From Pseudoxanthomonas sp. NC8 (lineage in GTDB: Bacteria > Pseudomonadota > Gammaproteobacteria > Xanthomonadales > Xanthomonadaceae): 64,000 nt of DNA. The notes beneath the pieces were generated by a model, which ran no database searches, was not told the DNA's origin, and was given only the letters and a program-made list of their open reading frames with translations. The stretch is from positions 1,797,001 to 1,861,000 of the forward strand of contig CP060419.1 of assembly GCA_025232375.1 (NCBI GenBank). Reading direction: 5' to 3'. Of the stretch, positions 26,378-39,107 are shown piece after piece. Position 1 is the first letter of the stretch. The number at the start of each line of letters is the position of its first letter. A program made the position numbers and the translations under genes.

Positions 26378-26752
26378 TTATGGCGGCCCTGTCGGACGCG
26401 GGGACGCATTGTCGCGCTGACGGATCTCGGCGACGTCGCGTTCGAGGAAGTAGTTGAGGAAGGTGCGGATCACGGCGATCGCGCCGAGCTGGCCGATCGC
26501 CTCCCATGAAGGTGCGATCGACGACTCGATGATGTCGGCCGCGAGCTGGAAGGTAAGCCCGGCCACCAGCCAGCGTGCATAGGTCAGCCACAGCACGCGC
26601 CGTTCATGGCCGGTCGCGCTCCTGCCGGTGATGACCATCCAGATCCCGACGAAGAACGTGTATGCGGTGGCGACTGCGATCAGCACCAGCGCCATCAGGT
26701 CGATGGCGGCGACCACCGGCTCGCTCAAAGCATACAGCCAGTGCCTGAGCAT
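26378..26752 (-). CDS. DUF1622 membrane protein
   Basis: Intact 124-residue inner-membrane protein with three hydrophobic segments (VVAAIDLMALVLIAVATAYT, WLVAGLTFQLAADII and LGAIAVIRTFLNYFL), the DUF1622 pattern. It starts 3 bases after the stop of the formylglycine-generating enzyme gene and is the last gene of the sulfatase operon. Function unknown. Confidence 0.85.
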   Translation of the reverse strand: MLRHWLYALSEPVVAAIDLMALVLIAVATAYTFFVGIWMVITGRSATGHERRVLWLTYARWLVAGLTFQLAADIIESSIAPSWEAIGQLGAIAVIRTFLNYFLERDVAEIRQRDNASPRPTGPP

Positions 26753-26755
26753 GCC

Positions 26756-27712
26756 CTAGCCCTCCACGCGCTCGCGGACCACGCAGCGAAAGCCGACGTG
26801 GCTGGTCGAGGTATCGACCGGTTGCGCCATACGCGCGGCCGGGCGGTAGCGGCGGCAGTAATTCGGCGCGCAGGCGTGCGACCCGCCCTTGGTTACCCGC
26901 CGCGGGAATGGGACCTGCGGGTTGCACGGATCGAGGCTGTCCTCGCGCGTGCCGCCACGTGGATTGTCCCGCGTGCAGCAACCTTGGTGGATGCGACCAT
27001 GCTCCTGGTACCAGTCGCTGGTCCATTCCCAGACATTGCCGATCATGTCGTGCAGGCCATAGCCGTTGGCCGGGAACGAGCCGACCGGCGCGGTGAATTC
27101 CCAGCCATCCAGCTTCCGGTTCTCCCACGGGAACTCGCCCTGCCAGGTGTTGGCCATGTAGCGGCCGCCGGGAACCAGCTCGTCGCCCCACGCGAATTCG
27201 GTACCGTCCGCGCCGCCCTTCGAGGCGAACTCCCACTCGGCCTCACTGGGCAGGTCCTTGCCGGCCCAGTGCGCGTACGCCAGCGCGTCCTCGTAGGCCA
27301 CGTGCACGACGGGATGGTCGTCCAGTCGGTCGATCGAACTGCCCGGGCCGCGCGGATGGCGCCAGTCGGCTCCGGCGATGTACTGCCACCAGTTGTAGTG
27401 GTTGTGCAGGTCGACGCGGCCCGGAGGCGGAACCAGGACTACCGAAGACGGCACCAGCAGCGCCGGATCGGCACCCGGGTAGGCGGCCGGATCGGCTGGC
27501 TTCTCGGTAAGGGTCACGTACCCGGTCGCGTCCACGAAGCGGGCAAACTCGCGGTTGGTCACCGTATGCCGGTCGATCCAGAATGCGTCCACGCGCACGG
27601 CGTGCGCCGGCTTCTCTTCCGGATAGTGATGGTCCGAACCCATGGTGAAGGTACCGCCATCGATGCGGACCATGCCGTCCATCGACAACGCCATGCCGGT
27701 TTCCCTGCCCAT
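26756..27712 (-). CDS. Formylglycine-generating enzyme (SUMF1/FGE)
   Basis: Oxidises the active-site Cys of type I sulfatases to C-alpha-formylglycine, using oxygen and copper. The 318-residue frame is intact. It has the N-terminal RIDGGTFTMGSD, LPSEAEWEFASKGG, NVWEWTSDWY, and the C-terminal KGGSHACAPNYCRRYRPAAR. Cys281 and Cys286 have the same five-residue spacing as the catalytic pair of true FGEs, which separates it from SUMF1-fold proteins lacking activity. The start at 27712 overlaps closely with the HAD stop (TGAGTATG), suggesting translational coupling; ATG 27694 is an alternative. Its substrate is almost certainly the sulfatase in the same operon. Confidence 0.93.
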   Translation of the reverse strand: MGRETGMALSMDGMVRIDGGTFTMGSDHHYPEEKPAHAVRVDAFWIDRHTVTNREFARFVDATGYVTLTEKPADPAAYPGADPALLVPSSVVLVPPPGRVDLHNHYNWWQYIAGADWRHPRGPGSSIDRLDDHPVVHVAYEDALAYAHWAGKDLPSEAEWEFASKGGADGTEFAWGDELVPGGRYMANTWQGEFPWENRKLDGWEFTAPVGSFPANGYGLHDMIGNVWEWTSDWYQEHGRIHQGCCTRDNPRGGTREDSLDPCNPQVPFPRRVTKGGSHACAPNYCRRYRPAARMAQPVDTSTSHVGFRCVVRERVEG

Positions 27713-27714
27713 AC

Positions 27715-28697
27715 TCAGTCCCCGAATATCGTGTTCCAGCCGTCCTTCATGCTGATAAGGTCGATCCCATACTCGCCGGCCCGGTCCAGCCCTTCCTTCA
27801 GCGGGCTGGTTCTGAAGTCGCGGTCGTAGGCGAACTCGCGTACGGCGTCATCGTGGTGCAACAGCAGTCCAAGCCTCGCCCCGTGTCCGGCCAGCGTGTA
27901 GCGCAACATCGCAAGATCCCCGTCCGAGTTTCCGAAGGCAAGGATCGGCCGCCGCCCGATATGCAATTCGATGTTCGCCGGCTTCTCCTCGCGGTCGTTG
28001 AAGCTGCCCAGTTGCGGCTGCTTGAGGATCTCGATGCCCTCGGCCGTCACCTCGAACGTGTTCCTGGTGCTGGAGCCCACCACCTGCTCGGGCGGGATGC
28101 CATACAGCCGTTCCGACAGCACGCGCACGAACTCGATGCCGCCGCCGGTAACGATGAATGTCTTGAAGCCATGCGCGCGCAGGTAGTCCAGCAGCTCGCG
28201 CTGGGGCCGGTAGGCGCCCGCACTGAACAGGCGACCGCTCTTCGGGTTCTTCGCGCCTTCGAGCCACCGGGCGACGGTCGCCTTGAACTGCGCCACCGTC
28301 ATCCCGGCATGCACCATGAAGGCAGGTTCGAAGACCTCCTGCCTTATGGGCATGCCGGTAAGGACCTCGATATCTCCCGCCAGCAGCGCCTTCACTGCCG
28401 GTTTGCGCAGCAGGGCCGGATCAGCGGCCCCCAGTCGCCTGAGCTCGTCCAGGACGAAGAACACCTGATATGGAGCGGGTACTCGCACCACAGCGTGCCA
28501 TCGTTGTCGAATACAGCGATGCGTTCGGCCGGAGCGACGAACTCGTCCCCACCCTCGCGGGTCACCCGGGCGACGAAGTCGACGATCCGCGCCCGGACCC
28601 CGCCACTGTTCCAGCCGGGAAGTTCATTCGCCACCTGCCACCCGCCCGCTAAAGGGCCTGCACGCGGGAATGGCAATGGGGCAATCGAGCGCCCCAT
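27715..28697 (-). CDS. HAD-family phosphatase, frameshifted
   Basis: Haloacid dehalogenase-like hydrolase. Motif I is IAVFDNDGTLWCEYP. Motif II is FKTFIVTGGGIEF, and motif III/IV is RRPILAFGNSDGDLAML. The frame breaks near 28468, where the family would read EYPLHFQVFFVLDEL and the DNA shows CATATCAGGTG, consistent with a damaged CCAGG. About 327 residues. The start is uncertain: ATG 28697 is the first in frame, but homologues often begin with a signal peptide and LPxWN. It lies between the sulfatase and FGE genes. Confidence 0.82.
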
Positions 28698-28762: not shown

Positions 28763-30414
28763 TCAGTCACCGCCGGCCGCCTCGCTCATCTTCGCCATCG
28801 CGTCGTCGATGGTGAAGCTGTTCGGCCGCTGCACCGCCGGAAATTCGCGGAACGTCTCGGCGAACTTGCCCGCTACGGCCTGCACCGCGTAGATCAGATA
28901 GGCGCGCTGCATCATCCAGTCGTTGTAGGTGTTGGATGTCACCGTGGCGAATTCGTACGGGTCCGTGCGCAGGTTGTATATGACGGGCCCCCTGAGCCGC
29001 ACGAATGGATCACGCCACACGGCCAGCCCGCCCGCCGTCCGCTGTTCCATGAAGGTCACCTTCCAGTTGTCCATGCGCACGGCAAGCACATCGCCGTCGT
29101 CGCTGAAGTAGAAGAAGAAATTGCGTGGGCTCTTCTTCTCCTTGCCGGTCAGGTAGCCGGTAAGGCTGACGCCGTCAATGTGGTTCTTGTAGGTCCGTCC
29201 AATCGCCTTGTACCCCTTCTTTAGCTTGTCCACGACATCAGGGGCGCCGGCGATGTCCATGGGGAAGGTCGGCAGCCAGTCATGGTGCTGCACGATCTCG
29301 TTGCTGACCGAACCGGCCTGGATGCGCCCGGGCCAGCGCACAACCATGGGTACGCGGAACGCTCCTTCCCAGTTGGTGTTCTTCTCGCTGCGGAACGGGG
29401 TCGTGCCCGCATCGGGCCACGAATTGCGATGCGGGCCATTGTCGGTCGAGTACTGGACGAAGGTATCGTCGGCGACGCCGATCTCGTCGAGAAAATCCAG
29501 CATCTGGCCGACGTTTCGGTCGTGGTCGATCATCGTGTCGTGGTAGGGCGATTGCCAGCGCCCCGCCTGCCCGCGACTCTCCGGCTTGGGGTGGGTGTAC
29601 AGGTGCATGTGGGTGGTGTTAAGCCATACGAACCATGGCTTGCCGGCCTTCTCCTGGCGCTTGATGAAATCCTTCGCCGCCGCGACGAACTCGTCGTCGC
29701 AGGTCTCCATCCGCTTGCGATTGAGCGGCCCGGTGTCCTTGATCTTCTGCTTTCCGACGCGGCCCCAGCGTGGATGCGTGGTGGCGTCGTCCTTGTCGGT
29801 GGCCCAGGGTGTGGAGCACGCCCCGCGGCCCGAAGGTTTCGCGGAACTTCGGGAAATCATCCGGCGGAGGATAGTCGTCCATCTCCGGCTCTTCCTCGGC
29901 ATTGAGGTGGTACAGATTGCCGAAGAACTCGTCGAAGCCGTGGTTGGTCGGCAGCATGTGGTTGAGGTCGCCGAGGTGGTTCTTGCCGAACTGGCCGGTG
30001 GCGTATCCCTGTTCCTTGAGCAACGCGGCAATGGTCACCAGCTTCTCGTTCATGCCGATGGGCGCGCCCGGCAGGCCTACCTTCGACAGCCCCGTGCGGT
30101 ACACGCTCTGCCCGGTGATGAAGGCGGAGCGCCCGGCCGTGCAGCTCTGTTCGCCGTAGCTGTCGGTGAACATCATCCCTTCCTGCGCCAGGCGGTCGAT
30201 GTTCGGCGTGCGGTACCCCATCAGGCCGTGCGAGTAGCAGCTGAGGTTCGAGATGCCGATGTCGTCGCCCCAGATCACCAGGATGTTGGGCTGCTTTCGC
30301 GCGCCACCGGCGGCGGACCCGGACGGCGCCGCGGACCTGGGCGGCAGCGGGCTTGCCGGGCTTGCCGGGCTTGGTTGCGTTCGTGCCCTTGGGTGCTTCT
30401 TTCACCTTTGCCAT
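28763..30414 (-). CDS. Type I sulfatase / arylsulfatase, frameshifted
   Basis: Alkaline-phosphatase-fold sulfatase. The metal-binding N-terminus is PNILVIWGDDIG. The maturation motif CTAGR has its formylglycine Cys codon at 30141-30143. Later come HMHLYTHPKPES and STDNGPHRNSWPD. The leader has no membrane segment: it is a Lys/Pro/Ala-rich stretch starting MAKVKEAPKGTN, so the enzyme is probably cytoplasmic, or exported some other way. Breaks at 30341 (GCCAGG read GCCCAGG) and 29811 (ACCTGG read ACCCTGG). About 550 residues. The natural sulfate ester is unknown. Confidence 0.93.
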
Positions 30415-30505: not shown

Positions 30506-31189
30506 CTAGCCAAATGGCGCGACGCCAAACACCATGCTGGCGATTGCCAACAGGCCGAGCACGAGCAGTGCCACCGCCGTCAGCAGGGTGAATGAAACCG
30601 GATAGCGGGTTTGGCCGTGGATCAGGCCCTCGCCCATCATCGCCGTGCGTTCGGCACGCAGATCGCGCATGTAATTGACGTGGTAGACGATGCCGAGCAC
30701 CAGCATGGTGATGCCGAGCGCGACCAGGGCCACGCCAAAGTTGCGCGGCGCATGCGCCTCCAGCTTCACGCCGGGCAGCTCCACCAGCCTTCCGAACACC
30801 TGGTAGATGGTGAAGCCGAAGCCGATCAGCGACAGCGAGGTGCGGATCACCGACATGAGCGTGCGCTCGGCGCTCAGCCGGGTCCGCTGGAAGGACATGC
30901 CGGTGCGCCGCATCGACATCTCGGTGCGGTCGATGGACAGGTCGGTGCGGTGCGTGGACAGGTCCGTGCGGTACTCGGACAGCGAGGTCCGATGGTCGGA
31001 CAGGCCGGTTCGGTGGTGCGACAGGTTGGTGCGGTAGGCGGAAAACTCGACCGAGGCCATGTCCGCGTCGGACCGGTCCACGTCGGGAATGGGCGGCAGC
31101 GTCCACGGCGGCAATGGGGCCGGACGCGGCGGCAACGCGTCCTCTTGCCCTTCGCTATTCCCGCTTCGCGCTGTCTTGATCGATTCCAT
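30506..31189 (-). CDS. DUF202-type membrane protein with ten N-terminal heptads
   Basis: Intact 227-residue protein. Residues 1-40 are Pro-rich. Residues 52-121 are ten uninterrupted heptads of the form xRTxLSx. Then come three hydrophobic segments (SLIGFGFTIYQVFGRL, FGVALVALGITMLVLGIVYH and SFTLLTAVALLVLGLLAIAS). The last heptads (ERTLMSVIRTSLSL) correspond to the short RTxLA repeat seen in DUF202/YidH proteins, here strongly expanded. It is upstream of the sulfatase gene in the same orientation. It probably forms a long cytoplasmic helix bundle at the membrane. Confidence 0.85.
   Translation of the reverse strand: MESIKTARSGNSEGQEDALPPRPAPLPPWTLPPIPDVDRSDADMASVEFSAYRTNLSHHRTGLSDHRTSLSEYRTDLSTHRTDLSIDRTEMSMRRTGMSFQRTRLSAERTLMSVIRTSLSLIGFGFTIYQVFGRLVELPGVKLEAHAPRNFGVALVALGITMLVLGIVYHVNYMRDLRAERTAMMGEGLIHGQTRYPVSFTLLTAVALLVLGLLAIASMVFGVAPFG
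30827..31036 (-). repeat. Ten in-frame 21-base repeats (heptad array)
   Basis: On the minus strand each 21-base unit encodes xRTxLSx or xRTxMSx, with the units YRTNLSH, HRTGLSD, HRTSLSE, YRTDLST, HRTDLSI, DRTEMSM, RRTGMSF, QRTRLSA, ERTLMSV and IRTSLSL. Arg-Thr and Ser are invariant in all ten, while the codons vary, so the array is selected at protein level. Confidence 0.9.
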
Positions 31190-31228: not shown

Positions 31229-31630
31229 TCAGTGGTGGATCCAGCGTCTTGCGACGCGGGTCACCGGGCCACGCAGCAACAGGTACGGAATGAAGGCGAG
31301 CAGGATCGAGATGACCAGTGTCTCCAGCGGCCGGCTGAAGTCGCCGAATACCTTGAACTGGTAGATCACGTCCATCGCGACGCCGAGCAGCAGGATGCGT
31401 GCGGTAGCGGTGACGCCGTTGCGCCAGGCGGCCTTGCGCTCTTCCGGTTGCGCATGGCGCAGATAGGCCCAGTACTGCTCGCGGCCAGCCCGCGCGTCCC
31501 TGATCCCGTCGCGCAGCGCCACGAGAAATGCCATCGTCGGCTGCAGGAAGAACCGGAATGTCATCGGCCCCTCGGAGCGCGCGACCATTTCCGTCCAGAA
31601 GCGATGCAGGTAATCCAGAAACGCATCCAT
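31229..31630 (-). CDS. Conserved membrane protein, unknown
   Basis: Intact 133-residue protein. An amphipathic N-terminus (FLDYLHRFWTEMVARSEGPM) is followed by FRFFLQPTMAFLVALRDGIRD, a charged loop, and two hydrophobic helices ending PYLLLRGPVTRVARRWIHH. I do not recognise a named family. It is the first gene of the minus-strand sulfatase operon, 39 bases before the DUF202 gene. Confidence 0.75.
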   Translation of the reverse strand: MDAFLDYLHRFWTEMVARSEGPMTFRFFLQPTMAFLVALRDGIRDARAGREQYWAYLRHAQPEERKAAWRNGVTATARILLLGVAMDVIYQFKVFGDFSRPLETLVISILLAFIPYLLLRGPVTRVARRWIHH

Positions 31631-36321: not shown

Positions 36322-36718
36322 ATGAACATCGGCCAATTGGCGCGCAGGCGGGCGTACCGATCGACACCATCCGCTATTACGAGCGCGAACGCGTGCTGCC
36401 ACCGCCACGCCGCAGCCCCAACGGCTACCGCCACTACGGGCCGGACGACGCGCAGCGGCTGAACTTCGTCCGCCGCGCCAAGGAGCTCGGTTTCACCTGG
36501 ACGAGATCCGCGGACTGCTGGCGCTCAGCGATGCCCGTCATGCGGACATGGCCAGCGTACGCGGCGCCGCGCAAGTGAAGCTCGAGCTGATCCAGCAACG
36601 CATCGCCGAACTGGAGCGCGTGCGTGACGCGCTGCGCGTGCTCGTGGATGCCTGTCCCGGCCATGGCCACTTGGGCGACTGCCCGATCATGTCCGCGCTG
36701 TCGGGTAGCGAGCGTTGA
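36322..36718 (+). CDS. MerR-family (CueR-like) metal regulator, frameshifted
   Basis: N-terminal HTH (MNIGQLARRAGVPIDTIRYY, reconstructed across a shift near 36345), then RSPNGYRHYGPDDAQRLNFV. The long dimer helix (VKLELIQQRIAELERVR) and a C-terminal metal loop CPGHGHLGDCPIM follow. The pair of Cys eight residues apart, with Ser and no Cys at the start of the dimer helix, fits monovalent-metal sensors such as CueR. The second break at 36499 is ACCCTGGAC read ACCTGGAC. The gene overlaps the start of the copper ATPase, its likely target. Confidence 0.88.
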
Positions 36719-39107
36719 ACCGCCATCCTCCCGGGTCGCCCCCGCCCGCCGCCTCCGGCAGCTGCTGCCACGGACACGGTCATGCGCATCCCGCGACCAC
36801 CGCACCGGCGGACAACCACAGTGCGCGCGATCCGGTCTGCGGCATGGCCGTCGACTCCGTACGCACGCCGCACCACGCCACGCACGACGGCACCGACTGG
36901 CATTTCTGCTCGGCTCGCTGCCGCGAACGCTTCACTGCCGACCCGGACCGGTACCTCGATCCGCCTGGCGACGGAGAAGAGGCGGGGGCAATGCCGGCCG
37001 GCACGACCTATACCTGCCCGATGCATCCGGAGATCCTGCGCGACGGCCCGGGTACCTGCCCGATCTGCGGCATGGCCCTGGAACCGCTGACACCGGGCCT
37101 GGACGACGGCGAAAACCCGGAACTGGCCGACTTCCGTCGCCGCTTCCTCGTCTCGCTGCCACTGGCTGCGGCGACCATGGGTACCAGCCATGGCCGGCCA
37201 TCAGCTCCACGCACTGACGGCGACGACGCGGACCTGGCTGGAGCTGGTGCTGGCCACGCCGGTGGTGCTCTGGGCCGGCTGGCCGTTCCTGCAACGCTGG
37301 GCCAGCTCGATCGCCACCCGCAATCCGAACATGTGGACGCTGATCGGAACCGGCGTCCTGGCCGCCTACGGCTACAGCCTGGTTGCTACGCTGGTGCCGG
37401 GCCTGTTCCCGCCCGCCTTCCACGAGCATGGCCGCGTCGGCGTGTACTTCGAGGCGGCCGCGGTCATCGTCACCCTGACGCTGTTCGGCCAGCTGCTGGA
37501 GCTGAAGGCGCGCTCGCGCACCTCCTCGGCGATCCGCGCCCTGCTCGGCCTGGCGCCGGCTGCGGCACGTCGCATCAACGCCGACGGCAGCGAAGCGGAT
37601 GTACCGCTGGCGGGGGTCCAGACCGGTGACCGGCTGCGCGTGCGCCCGGGCGAGAAGGTGCCGGTCGATGGCGTGGTTCTGGAGGGTCGCTCGCACGTGG
37701 ACGAATCCATGCTCACCGGCGAGCCGATGCCGGTAGCCCGGAACATCGGCGACACCGTGGTCGGCGCGACCCTCAACGGCAACGGCGCGCTGGTCATCCG
37801 GGCCACCGGGGTCGGCGAGGCGACGGTACTGGCCCGGATCGTGCAGCTGGTGGCGCAGGCGCAGCGCTCGCGCGCGCCGATGCAGAAGCTGGCCGACCGG
37901 GTCTCGTACTGGTTCGTGCTCGCCGTGGTCGGCGTGGCGGCGCTCTCGTTTAGCGCCAGGGCATGTTCGGACCCGAGCCGTCCTGGATGCGCGCGATCGT
38001 GCACGCGGTCTCCGTGCTGATCATCGCCTGCCCGTGCGCGCTGGGCCTTAGCCACGCCGATGTCGGTGATGGTCGCCACCGGTCGTGCGGCGCAATGCGG
38101 CGTGCTGTTCCGCGATGCCGAGGCGATTGAACGCCTGCGCGGGATCGACACCCTCGTGGTCGACAAGACCGGCACCCTGACCGAAGGTCGCCCGGTCTTC
38201 CGCGAAGTGGTGGCCACCGGTGCCTTCGACGCAACCCGCGTGCTCCGGCTCGCTGCCAGCCTCGATGCCGGCAGCGAACATCCGCTCGCCCACGCCATCG
38301 TTGCCGAGGCGCGCAGCCGCGGACTGGCCTTGTGGACGGCCAGCGACTTCGAATCCGGCGCGGGCACTGGCGTGCGCGGGCACGTCGAAGGCCACGCGCT
38401 GCTGCTCGGCTCCGCCGCGCTGATGCGTGCGCACGGAATCGACTGCGCCGATCTCGAGGCGCATGCCACCGCCTTGCGCAGCGACGGCGCCAGCGTCGTG
38501 TTATGGCCATCGACGGGATCGCCGCGGGCCTGCTGGCGGTCGCCGATCCGGTCAAGGCCAGCACGCCGGAGGCATTGGCGCGGCTGCATGCGGCGGGCCT
38601 GCGCGTGGTCATGGCCAGCGGCGACGGACAGGCGACCGCGCAGGCCGTCGCCCGGCGGCTGGGCATCGACGAGGTGCATGGAGAAATGACGCCCGATGGC
38701 AAGGTCGCCCTGCTCGCGCGCCTGCGCGCCCGCGGCCATCGCGTGGCGATGGCCGGCGATGGCATCAACGATGCGCCGGCACTGGCCGCGGCCGATGTCG
38801 GCATCGCGATGGGCACCGGAACCGACGTGGCGATGTCCAGCGCGCAGGTCACCTGGTCAAGGGCGACCTGCGCGGCATCGCCGATGCGATCGCCATCTCC
38901 CGCGCCAGCGTGCGCAACATGCGCCAGAACCTCGTCTTCGCCCTGCTCTACAACGGTATGGGCGTACCGGTTGCCGCCGGCCTCCTGTATCCGATCAGTG
39001 GCCTGGTCATGTCGCCGATGCTGGCCGCGCTGGCGATGAGCCTGAGTTCGGTCTCGGTGGTCGGCAACGCACTGCGCCTCCGCTTCAGTGGAAGACGCGC
39101 AACGTGA
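36715..39107 (+). CDS. copA: Copper-exporting P1B-type ATPase, frameshifted
   Basis: Heavy-metal P-type ATPase. The N-terminus lacks a GMxCxxC domain and has instead a His/Cys cluster (CCHGHGHAH), a YHS domain ([25 protein letters not shown]) and a metal-binding CPMHP/CPICGM segment. The core has the CPC helix ([11 protein letters not shown], reconstructed), phosphorylation [11 protein letters not shown], the HP motif [10 protein letters not shown] and hinge [12 protein letters not shown]. Breaks include 37185, 37950, 38046 (GGCCTGGCC read GGCCTTAGCC), 38503 and 38855. The start appears to be TTG 36715 overlapping the merR stop. About 797 residues. Cu(I) is inferred from motifs and context. 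Confidence 0.92.

Follow-up and report, generated by a model that had tools for sequence, protein, structure and literature searches.

A conserved array of ten in-register arginine heptads extends a DUF202 membrane protein encoded beside a sulfatase system in Pseudoxanthomonas

Introduction

Why should a small membrane protein of the DUF202 family carry ten copies of a seven-residue arginine unit ahead of its membrane domain, and what might such an array do beside the genes of a sulfatase system? The question is raised by P0001, a protein encoded within a stretch of 64,000 nucleotides from contig CP060419.1 of Pseudoxanthomonas sp. NC8 (the whole of which we refer to as the window). By its Pfam name DUF202 (PF02656) is still a family of unknown function, and the array offers a handle on it. 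In a literature search whose coverage excluded most subscription journals, we found neither heptad arrays in DUF202 proteins nor a function for bacterial members of the family; the only papers returned for DUF202 together with sulfatase were PMC10434189 and PMC5819568, where the excerpted matches are to longer DUF numbers, while an excerpt of PMC4400040 names VTC4 under DUF202.

In E. coli, YidH and YidG belong to the same Pfam family as P0001 and are likewise encoded near a sulfatase gene, yidJ (whose product matches PF00884), with yidI between; YidF and YidI have no Pfam match. YidH has three in-register arginines, compared with ten in P0001, and the annotation of yidG and yidH gives no function. 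In the excerpted account of a D-Ala export study, YidH passed the screen, whereas the transport assay showed no fall in intracellular D-Ala, and therefore transport by a bacterial DUF202 protein was not demonstrated there.

A ten-unit array continuous with the membrane domain

P0001 (227 aa) is encoded by an intact open reading frame at 30506..31189 on the minus strand. Pfam assigns it to DUF202 only (aa 102-173, E 9.8e-14, 52 bits against a curated cut-off of 23.4 bits), SPX and polymerase domains being absent from it, and no NCBIfam profile matches it. Ten contiguous RTx[LM]S heptads, spaced by exactly seven residues, occupy aa 53-122 (30824..31033, minus strand) and run unbroken into the first transmembrane helix (TM1) of the domain, such that the last three units lie, with TM1 and TM2, inside the PF02656 match (30668..30886, minus strand) and seven lie ahead of it. 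A previous sequence-only reading of this DNA had placed the array at 30827-31036; both ranges describe one array, the earlier count starting one residue before the 31033 down to 30824 given here. An in-register N-cap, MASVEFSAY (aa 44-52; 31034..31060, minus strand), has the form of a degenerate unit with Ser at the Arg position.

As that reading had claimed, Arg, Thr and Ser are constant in all ten units, with Leu (seven units) or Met (three) at the fourth position, and the codons differ from unit to unit (Arg as CGC in seven, CGG in two and CGA in one; Ser as TCC in five, TCG in four and AGC in one). Chance can be excluded as the origin of the array: the longest RTx[LM]S run obtained in 20,000 shuffles of P0001 was a single unit, no run of more than one unit occurs in the other frames of the window, and the array recurs in several genera (see below).

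Hydropathy peaks at aa 110-128, 151-169 and 202-220, the first of which barely passes (1.41, cut-off 1.4), and the helices of an AlphaFold2 model agree in predicting that P0001 has the three membrane helices of a DUF202 protein. The model, computed from a 39-sequence alignment, has one continuous helix at aa 42-137 that bears both the array and TM1 (30779..31066, minus strand), followed by helices at 146-186 and 200-221; along the first, the 10-residue mean pLDDT is 79-92 up to residue 130 and 74 for residues 131-140. In helical form the 70 residues of the array would measure 105 Angstrom at 1.5 Angstrom each, and the helix of roughly 100 Angstrom proposed earlier, on the proviso that it be continuous, is thus what the prediction returns.

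A small class within a family of in-register arginines

To place P0001 within its family, DUF202 domains were collected at E <= 1e-5 from a phylum sample of 398 genomes, the first pass scoring up to 14 candidates per genome. At least 64 of these genomes have a DUF202 domain, and at least 87 domains were found. Counting arginines spaced by seven, i.e. Arg alone rather than the whole RTxLS unit, the 87 domains listed have chains of 2 (25 domains), 3 (29), 4 (23), 5 (6), 9 (1) and 10 (3), so that 83 carry two to five in-register arginines and four carry nine or ten. The earlier statement that DUF202 proteins have two or three copies was therefore roughly right. DUF202 domains thus generally share an in-register Arg pair or ladder, and P0001 is a member of a small class in which the chain is about doubled or more. 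Its array is genuine and conserved, and it extends a known family in an unusual way.

Array length and its evolutionary history

A single scan of GTDB contigs, which yielded 43 loci, and genome searches supplied the homologues. Array length was counted in 26 long rows, P0001 included, and 22 short rows, with the distant L014, L018 and L056-L060 set aside; L037 and L106 among the short rows, each on a contig of 2,711,874 bases, probably represent a single gene, which leaves 21 short genes. Length is sharply bimodal: the long arrays have 9 units in 10 sequences, 10 units in 15 and 12 units in one, every short array has exactly 4, and none of the 48 rows has an intermediate length of 5-8. Array lengths thus differ by whole heptads alone. 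Long and short arrays alike are preceded by caps related to MASVEFSAY, most of which read S-x-x-[YFL]-S. The short-array proteins, from Stenotrophomonas and others (e.g. L037 and L051), share with P0001 the clade, a similar N-cap, the same four membrane-proximal units and the gene neighbours, and differ in stopping at four units where the long forms have 9-12. A PP[LI]P-type stretch seen in the long forms is, in addition, missing from the leaders of L037 and L051. The genome of P0001 itself contains another DUF202 gene from this clade (G000:C1:2546965-2547363, minus strand), which has four units and lies in an open frame of 668 aa.

The closest named match is Pseudoxanthomonas sp. BIN6 (86% identity), and an orthologue in L019 is 86% identical over residues 1-226. 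Recent replication slippage or an assembly error could in principle yield such a repeat, and the source genome does look indel-rich: it is a single contig of 3.54 Mb with a completeness estimate of 57%, which together with a frameshift in the neighbouring sulfatase gene suggests indel errors in the assembly. Against this, independent assemblies from several genera also contain arrays of ten units (L019, L011, L015, L020, L091 and L092 among others), and the units of the P0001 array are distinct from one another, with a mean nucleotide identity of 0.61, and conserved by ordinal. These observations refute an artefactual origin, to which we assign practically no chance, and uphold the sequence-only reading in its view that the array is no product of recent slippage.

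Alternatively, the extra heptads might be variation in length that is simply tolerated and adds no function of its own to that of the four core units. Four-unit homologues do adjoin the same genes, and the tree of the membrane region shows repeated switches of the long/short label; however, an idle polymorphism fits poorly with the missing intermediate lengths and with the constraint on the distal units. In the 148 distal units of the 26 long homologues, Arg is present in 148, Thr in 143 with Ser in the other 5, Leu or Met in 147 and Ser in 147, positions c, f and g being variable. At these variable positions, identity across species among the 15 ten-unit arrays is 0.56 for units of the same ordinal and 0.16 for units of different ordinal. 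Furthermore, six orthologue pairs gave array dN/dS values of 0.03-0.18, and at the invariant positions four of the six pairs show 0 non-synonymous against 9-14 synonymous differences, the remaining two showing 2.0 and 3.5 against 17 and 25.5, respectively. Since units keep their identity across species and dN/dS is low, the array is old and under purifying selection, and we hold functionless length variation to be very unlikely.

The tree of the membrane region comprised 47 rows (L045 was left out, and L037 and L106 were both retained; the alignments A1 and A2 have 45 and 39 rows, respectively). It requires seven changes between long and short, at least three of which are forced by well-supported branches. 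Since the distal units can be recognised as the same from one genus to another, these changes would be read most simply as block loss of those units or as transfer.

The sulfatase system and its genetic link to DUF202

P0001 lies in a series of six genes, all on the minus strand, in the order small membrane protein (133 aa, 31229..31630), DUF202, sulfatase (28766..30293), HAD-superfamily hydrolase (27715..28491, PF12710), formylglycine-generating-enzyme (FGE) family protein for sulfatase maturation (26756..27712, PF03781, E 1.5e-85) and DUF1622 protein (26378..26752, PF07784). Sulfatase and FGE genes thus stand near the DUF202 gene, as in an FGE-dependent sulfatase cluster. The sulfatase gene, in which a signal peptide is not evident, is broken in two frames (joining at ~29736-29827); in the relative L020 it is a single open reading frame, whose product starts MAKQPKKQNGKPN and, by eye, is without a signal peptide. 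The small membrane protein upstream is a frequent and conserved neighbour (132-133 aa, 30 columns being invariant when 16 sequences are aligned); no Pfam or NCBIfam profile matches it, its AlphaFold2 model is weak (mean pLDDT 68), and we consider it a candidate partner subunit. Elsewhere in the window, at 36715-38020 on the plus strand, overlapping open reading frames in different frames look like one metal P-type ATPase gene, perhaps with another frameshift.

The 43 loci of the contig scan divide into 20 with long arrays, 17 with short arrays and six distant ones (L056-L061) that were left out of the tally. Proteins of the window itself served as queries for neighbours (E <= 1e-4) in flanks of up to 5 kb, or less at contig ends. 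A sulfatase, FGE, HAD, DUF1622 or upstream-membrane-protein neighbour is found at 17 of 17 short-array loci and 13 of 20 long-array loci; the weakest loci so counted are L039 (DUF1622 at 36% and sulfatase at 25%) and L041 (HAD at 44%, on the other strand). The seven long-array loci without such a match (L024-L028, L030 and L031) all belong to Caulobacteraceae. Genome searches covering these seven and two others of the 20 long loci recovered a sulfatase in nine of nine genomes, the best match being 71-91% identical over the 150 aa compared. Among six Caulobacteraceae sulfatase regions of ~10 kb each, L250-L253 also contain HAD and FGE genes, two of them DUF1622 as well, and L254 and L260 have the sulfatase alone. 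No DUF202 match was found in the L250-L253 regions, and the same genomes keep their long-array DUF202 gene elsewhere; none of these enzymes lies within ~5 kb of the long arrays of L255 and L258.

Co-occurrence across genomes gives a similar picture. With a sulfatase cut-off of E <= 1e-40, set beforehand, a sulfatase is present in 4 of 4 long-array genomes of the phylum sample and in 43 of the other 394 (nominal p 0.0002, relatedness ignored), and among 60 relatives in 3 of 3 long-array genomes against 6 of 57 others (nominal p 0.002); the genomes being related, both p-values are indicative only, and values at >= 80% identity, a threshold picked with the data in view, were disregarded. The DUF202 clade and the sulfatase system therefore belong together genetically. 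The sequence-only reading had tied the expanded array to a sulfatase operon, and had named homologues with the same gene neighbours and no expansion as evidence to the contrary. The link holds for the clade but not for the expansion: homologues with the same neighbours and only four units are common, which counts in part against that reading. In G223, moreover, the closest sulfatase (86% identical) adjoins a four-unit paralogue and not the nine-unit one, and this, with the enzyme-free surroundings of L255 and L258, indicates that length is not the tie to the sulfatase. A dependence of array length on the sulfatase genes is likewise unsupported, given the neighbours shared by short-array relatives and the seven Caulobacteraceae long genes that lie away from the sulfatase.

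An arginine face in register with the VTC channel

Lettering the heptad with Arg as a places Thr at b, Leu or Met at d and Ser at e, all on one helix face with Arg at its centre. The residues three and four positions away from each array Arg are Leu, Met, Phe or Ser in ten of ten units and never acidic, so that its charge is not neutralised by those neighbours in the helix. Acidic residues sit mainly at c and f, on the outer side far from the Arg face, and for this reason the array is merely mildly basic overall (12 R/K against 7 D/E, and 7 against 6 in the six distal units). The hydrophobic moment is modest, at 0.09-0.20 across the six distal units and 0.24-0.36 in 18-residue windows, with negative mean hydrophobicity; an amphipathic helix lying in the plane of the lipid is disfavoured by these values, and with it the earlier suggestion that the helix might bind acidic lipids flat on the membrane.

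P0001 can be compared with Vtc1, a PF02656 member of the yeast polyphosphate translocase VTC, in which the basic residues of TM1 are likewise seven apart and in the same register. PF02656 profile position 1 falls on residue 24 of Vtc1 (a sequence identical to PDB 8i6v_A) and on residue 102 of P0001; both matches start at this position, and therefore K24 pairs with R102 and R31 with R109. A weak hhalign alignment of the two proteins (E 0.044, probability 1.2%) also pairs R31 with R109. Seven further array arginines follow upstream in strict register and one (R116) downstream, so that Vtc1 has two basic steps and P0001 ten. In excerpts of the VTC cryo-EM study (PMC9911596), the channel is formed by five TM1 helices, its upper wall is lined by Vtc1 K24 and R31, Vtc4 K622 and R629, and Vtc3 K694, K698, R705 and R709, R31 of Vtc1 stands where the channel is narrowest, and two phosphates lie at the entrance. 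The same excerpts report that alanine mutants of TM1 basic residues lowered polyphosphate synthesis in Vtc3 or Vtc4, and that the K24 and R31 mutants of Vtc1 raised it. Judged by sequence, P0001 has the pore-lining register of VTC, and through this register bacterial DUF202 can be linked to the helix that lines the pore of an anion translocase of solved structure. Unlike VTC, P0001 is without an SPX or polymerase domain and has a sulfatase system as its neighbours; a linked polyphosphate polymerase of the VTC type (TTM/VTC) was found neither in P0001 nor in the five neighbouring genes scanned.

Comparisons of fold added little. A PDB sequence search with the family profile gave 0 matches up to E 10, and Foldseek with the P0001 model gave nothing at E <= 0.001 (best E 0.97). 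In VIA-align the Vtc1 chain 8i6v_C reached Z 8.0 with an rmsd of 8.5 over 100 residues, at rank 42 of 50 rows, which is within the noise for helical proteins, VTC chains not ranking above unrelated helical rows. The 7ytj_D row was discarded as a membrane-domain match, the alignment covering residues 42-178 of the chain.

The sequence-only reading had proposed that the Arg face binds anions, and this is plausible, given that two aligned basic residues line the VTC channel where phosphates are seen. One form of the idea is a polyanion sensor or binder, in which the face would bind polyphosphate, nucleic acid or acidic lipid and so regulate the membrane domain. The arginine row without acidic neighbours and the phosphate ions at the VTC entrance are consistent with this; the modest hydrophobic moment speaks against flat membrane binding, and neither YidH nor YidG appears in the main text of an E. 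coli polyphosphate-binding screen (PMC12345225). On balance we regard a sensor as unlikely.

A proposed arginine ladder

We suggest instead, as a plausible reading if short of a probable one, that P0001 forms a VTC-like oligomer in which a ladder of arginines collects an anion, or leads it along, on behalf of the sulfatase system. The pore-lining first helix would be prolonged by ~100 Angstrom into the cytosol; several copies (five in VTC) would probably stand parallel around one axis, with the Arg of each heptad facing the axis and Leu/Met and Ser at helix-helix contacts. The result would be a stack of about ten arginine rings, compared with the two basic steps of Vtc1, where an anion on its way between the pore in the membrane and enzymes of the cytosol would be bound or guided. 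As its client we consider most likely the FGE-type sulfatase system, encoded beside P0001 or elsewhere in the genome, and the anion may be a sulfate ester entering or sulfate leaving. Analogy with VTC, together with the lack of an evident signal peptide in the partner sulfatase (L020, by eye), points to a cytosolic placement of the array, and the continuation of VTC pore positions by the array arginines in strict register is the main support for a prolonged pore-lining helix. Whole-heptad length changes suit a stack of rings or a bundle, and the single face formed by the conserved a, b, d and e positions around Arg, the lack of acidic helix neighbours of Arg, the low dN/dS of the array, the single continuous predicted helix, and the presence of a sulfatase in all long-array genomes searched and all those of the phylum sample argue for it as well. 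Against it stand the want of a confident fold match, the weak hhalign score, the short homologues with the same neighbours, the arrangement in G223, the mild basicity, the raised activity of the Vtc1 K24 and R31 mutants and the failure of YidH to lower D-Ala.

The same length changes would be expected of a membrane-anchored coiled-coil rod, a spacer or docking surface of fixed length that holds the sulfatase and its partners at the membrane with no passage of anions, and in which the role of Arg, Ser and Leu is to pack helices or bind partners. The bimodal lengths in whole-heptad steps, the repeated long/short switches expected of a modular spacer and the L020 sulfatase without a visible signal peptide are all in keeping with such a rod, which we consider possible but doubtful. 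A plain rod needs no invariant, unpaired Arg in every one of the distal units, and the register runs on into the basic positions that line the VTC pore. Both explanations account for whole-heptad changes in length, and the arginine ladder better explains why Arg is never lost.

Parallel coiled coils and alpha-helical barrels show a strict heptad with Leu at d and a small residue at e, as does the array of P0001, which differs from this class in having Arg at every a position. We know of no natural coiled coil with Arg at every a. In its most specific form the ladder could be a cytosolic tube of ~100 Angstrom, made of ten stacked rings resembling the VTC constriction, acting as anion antenna or conduit in a bacterial sulfate-ester system and changing between 4 and 9-12 rings in evolution; this we put forward only tentatively. 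If true, nature would here also have made a coiled coil whose a positions are all Arg and whose helices are kept together by the anions they bind. The series found in nature, with 2, 3, 4, 5, 9, 10 and 12 in-register arginines, together with the partner enzymes, makes an arginine-lined anion path in DUF202 directly testable.

Two further kinds of DUF202-like protein were seen in passing. L064 (genome G318) has eight in-register arginines, mostly in RS units, and is apparently a separate expansion. L073, L077, L079, L081 and L088 are open frames of ~440-540 aa with tandem DUF202-like units, several of which have short RT arrays of their own; such proteins are natural concatemers, and could reveal how DUF202 units pack.
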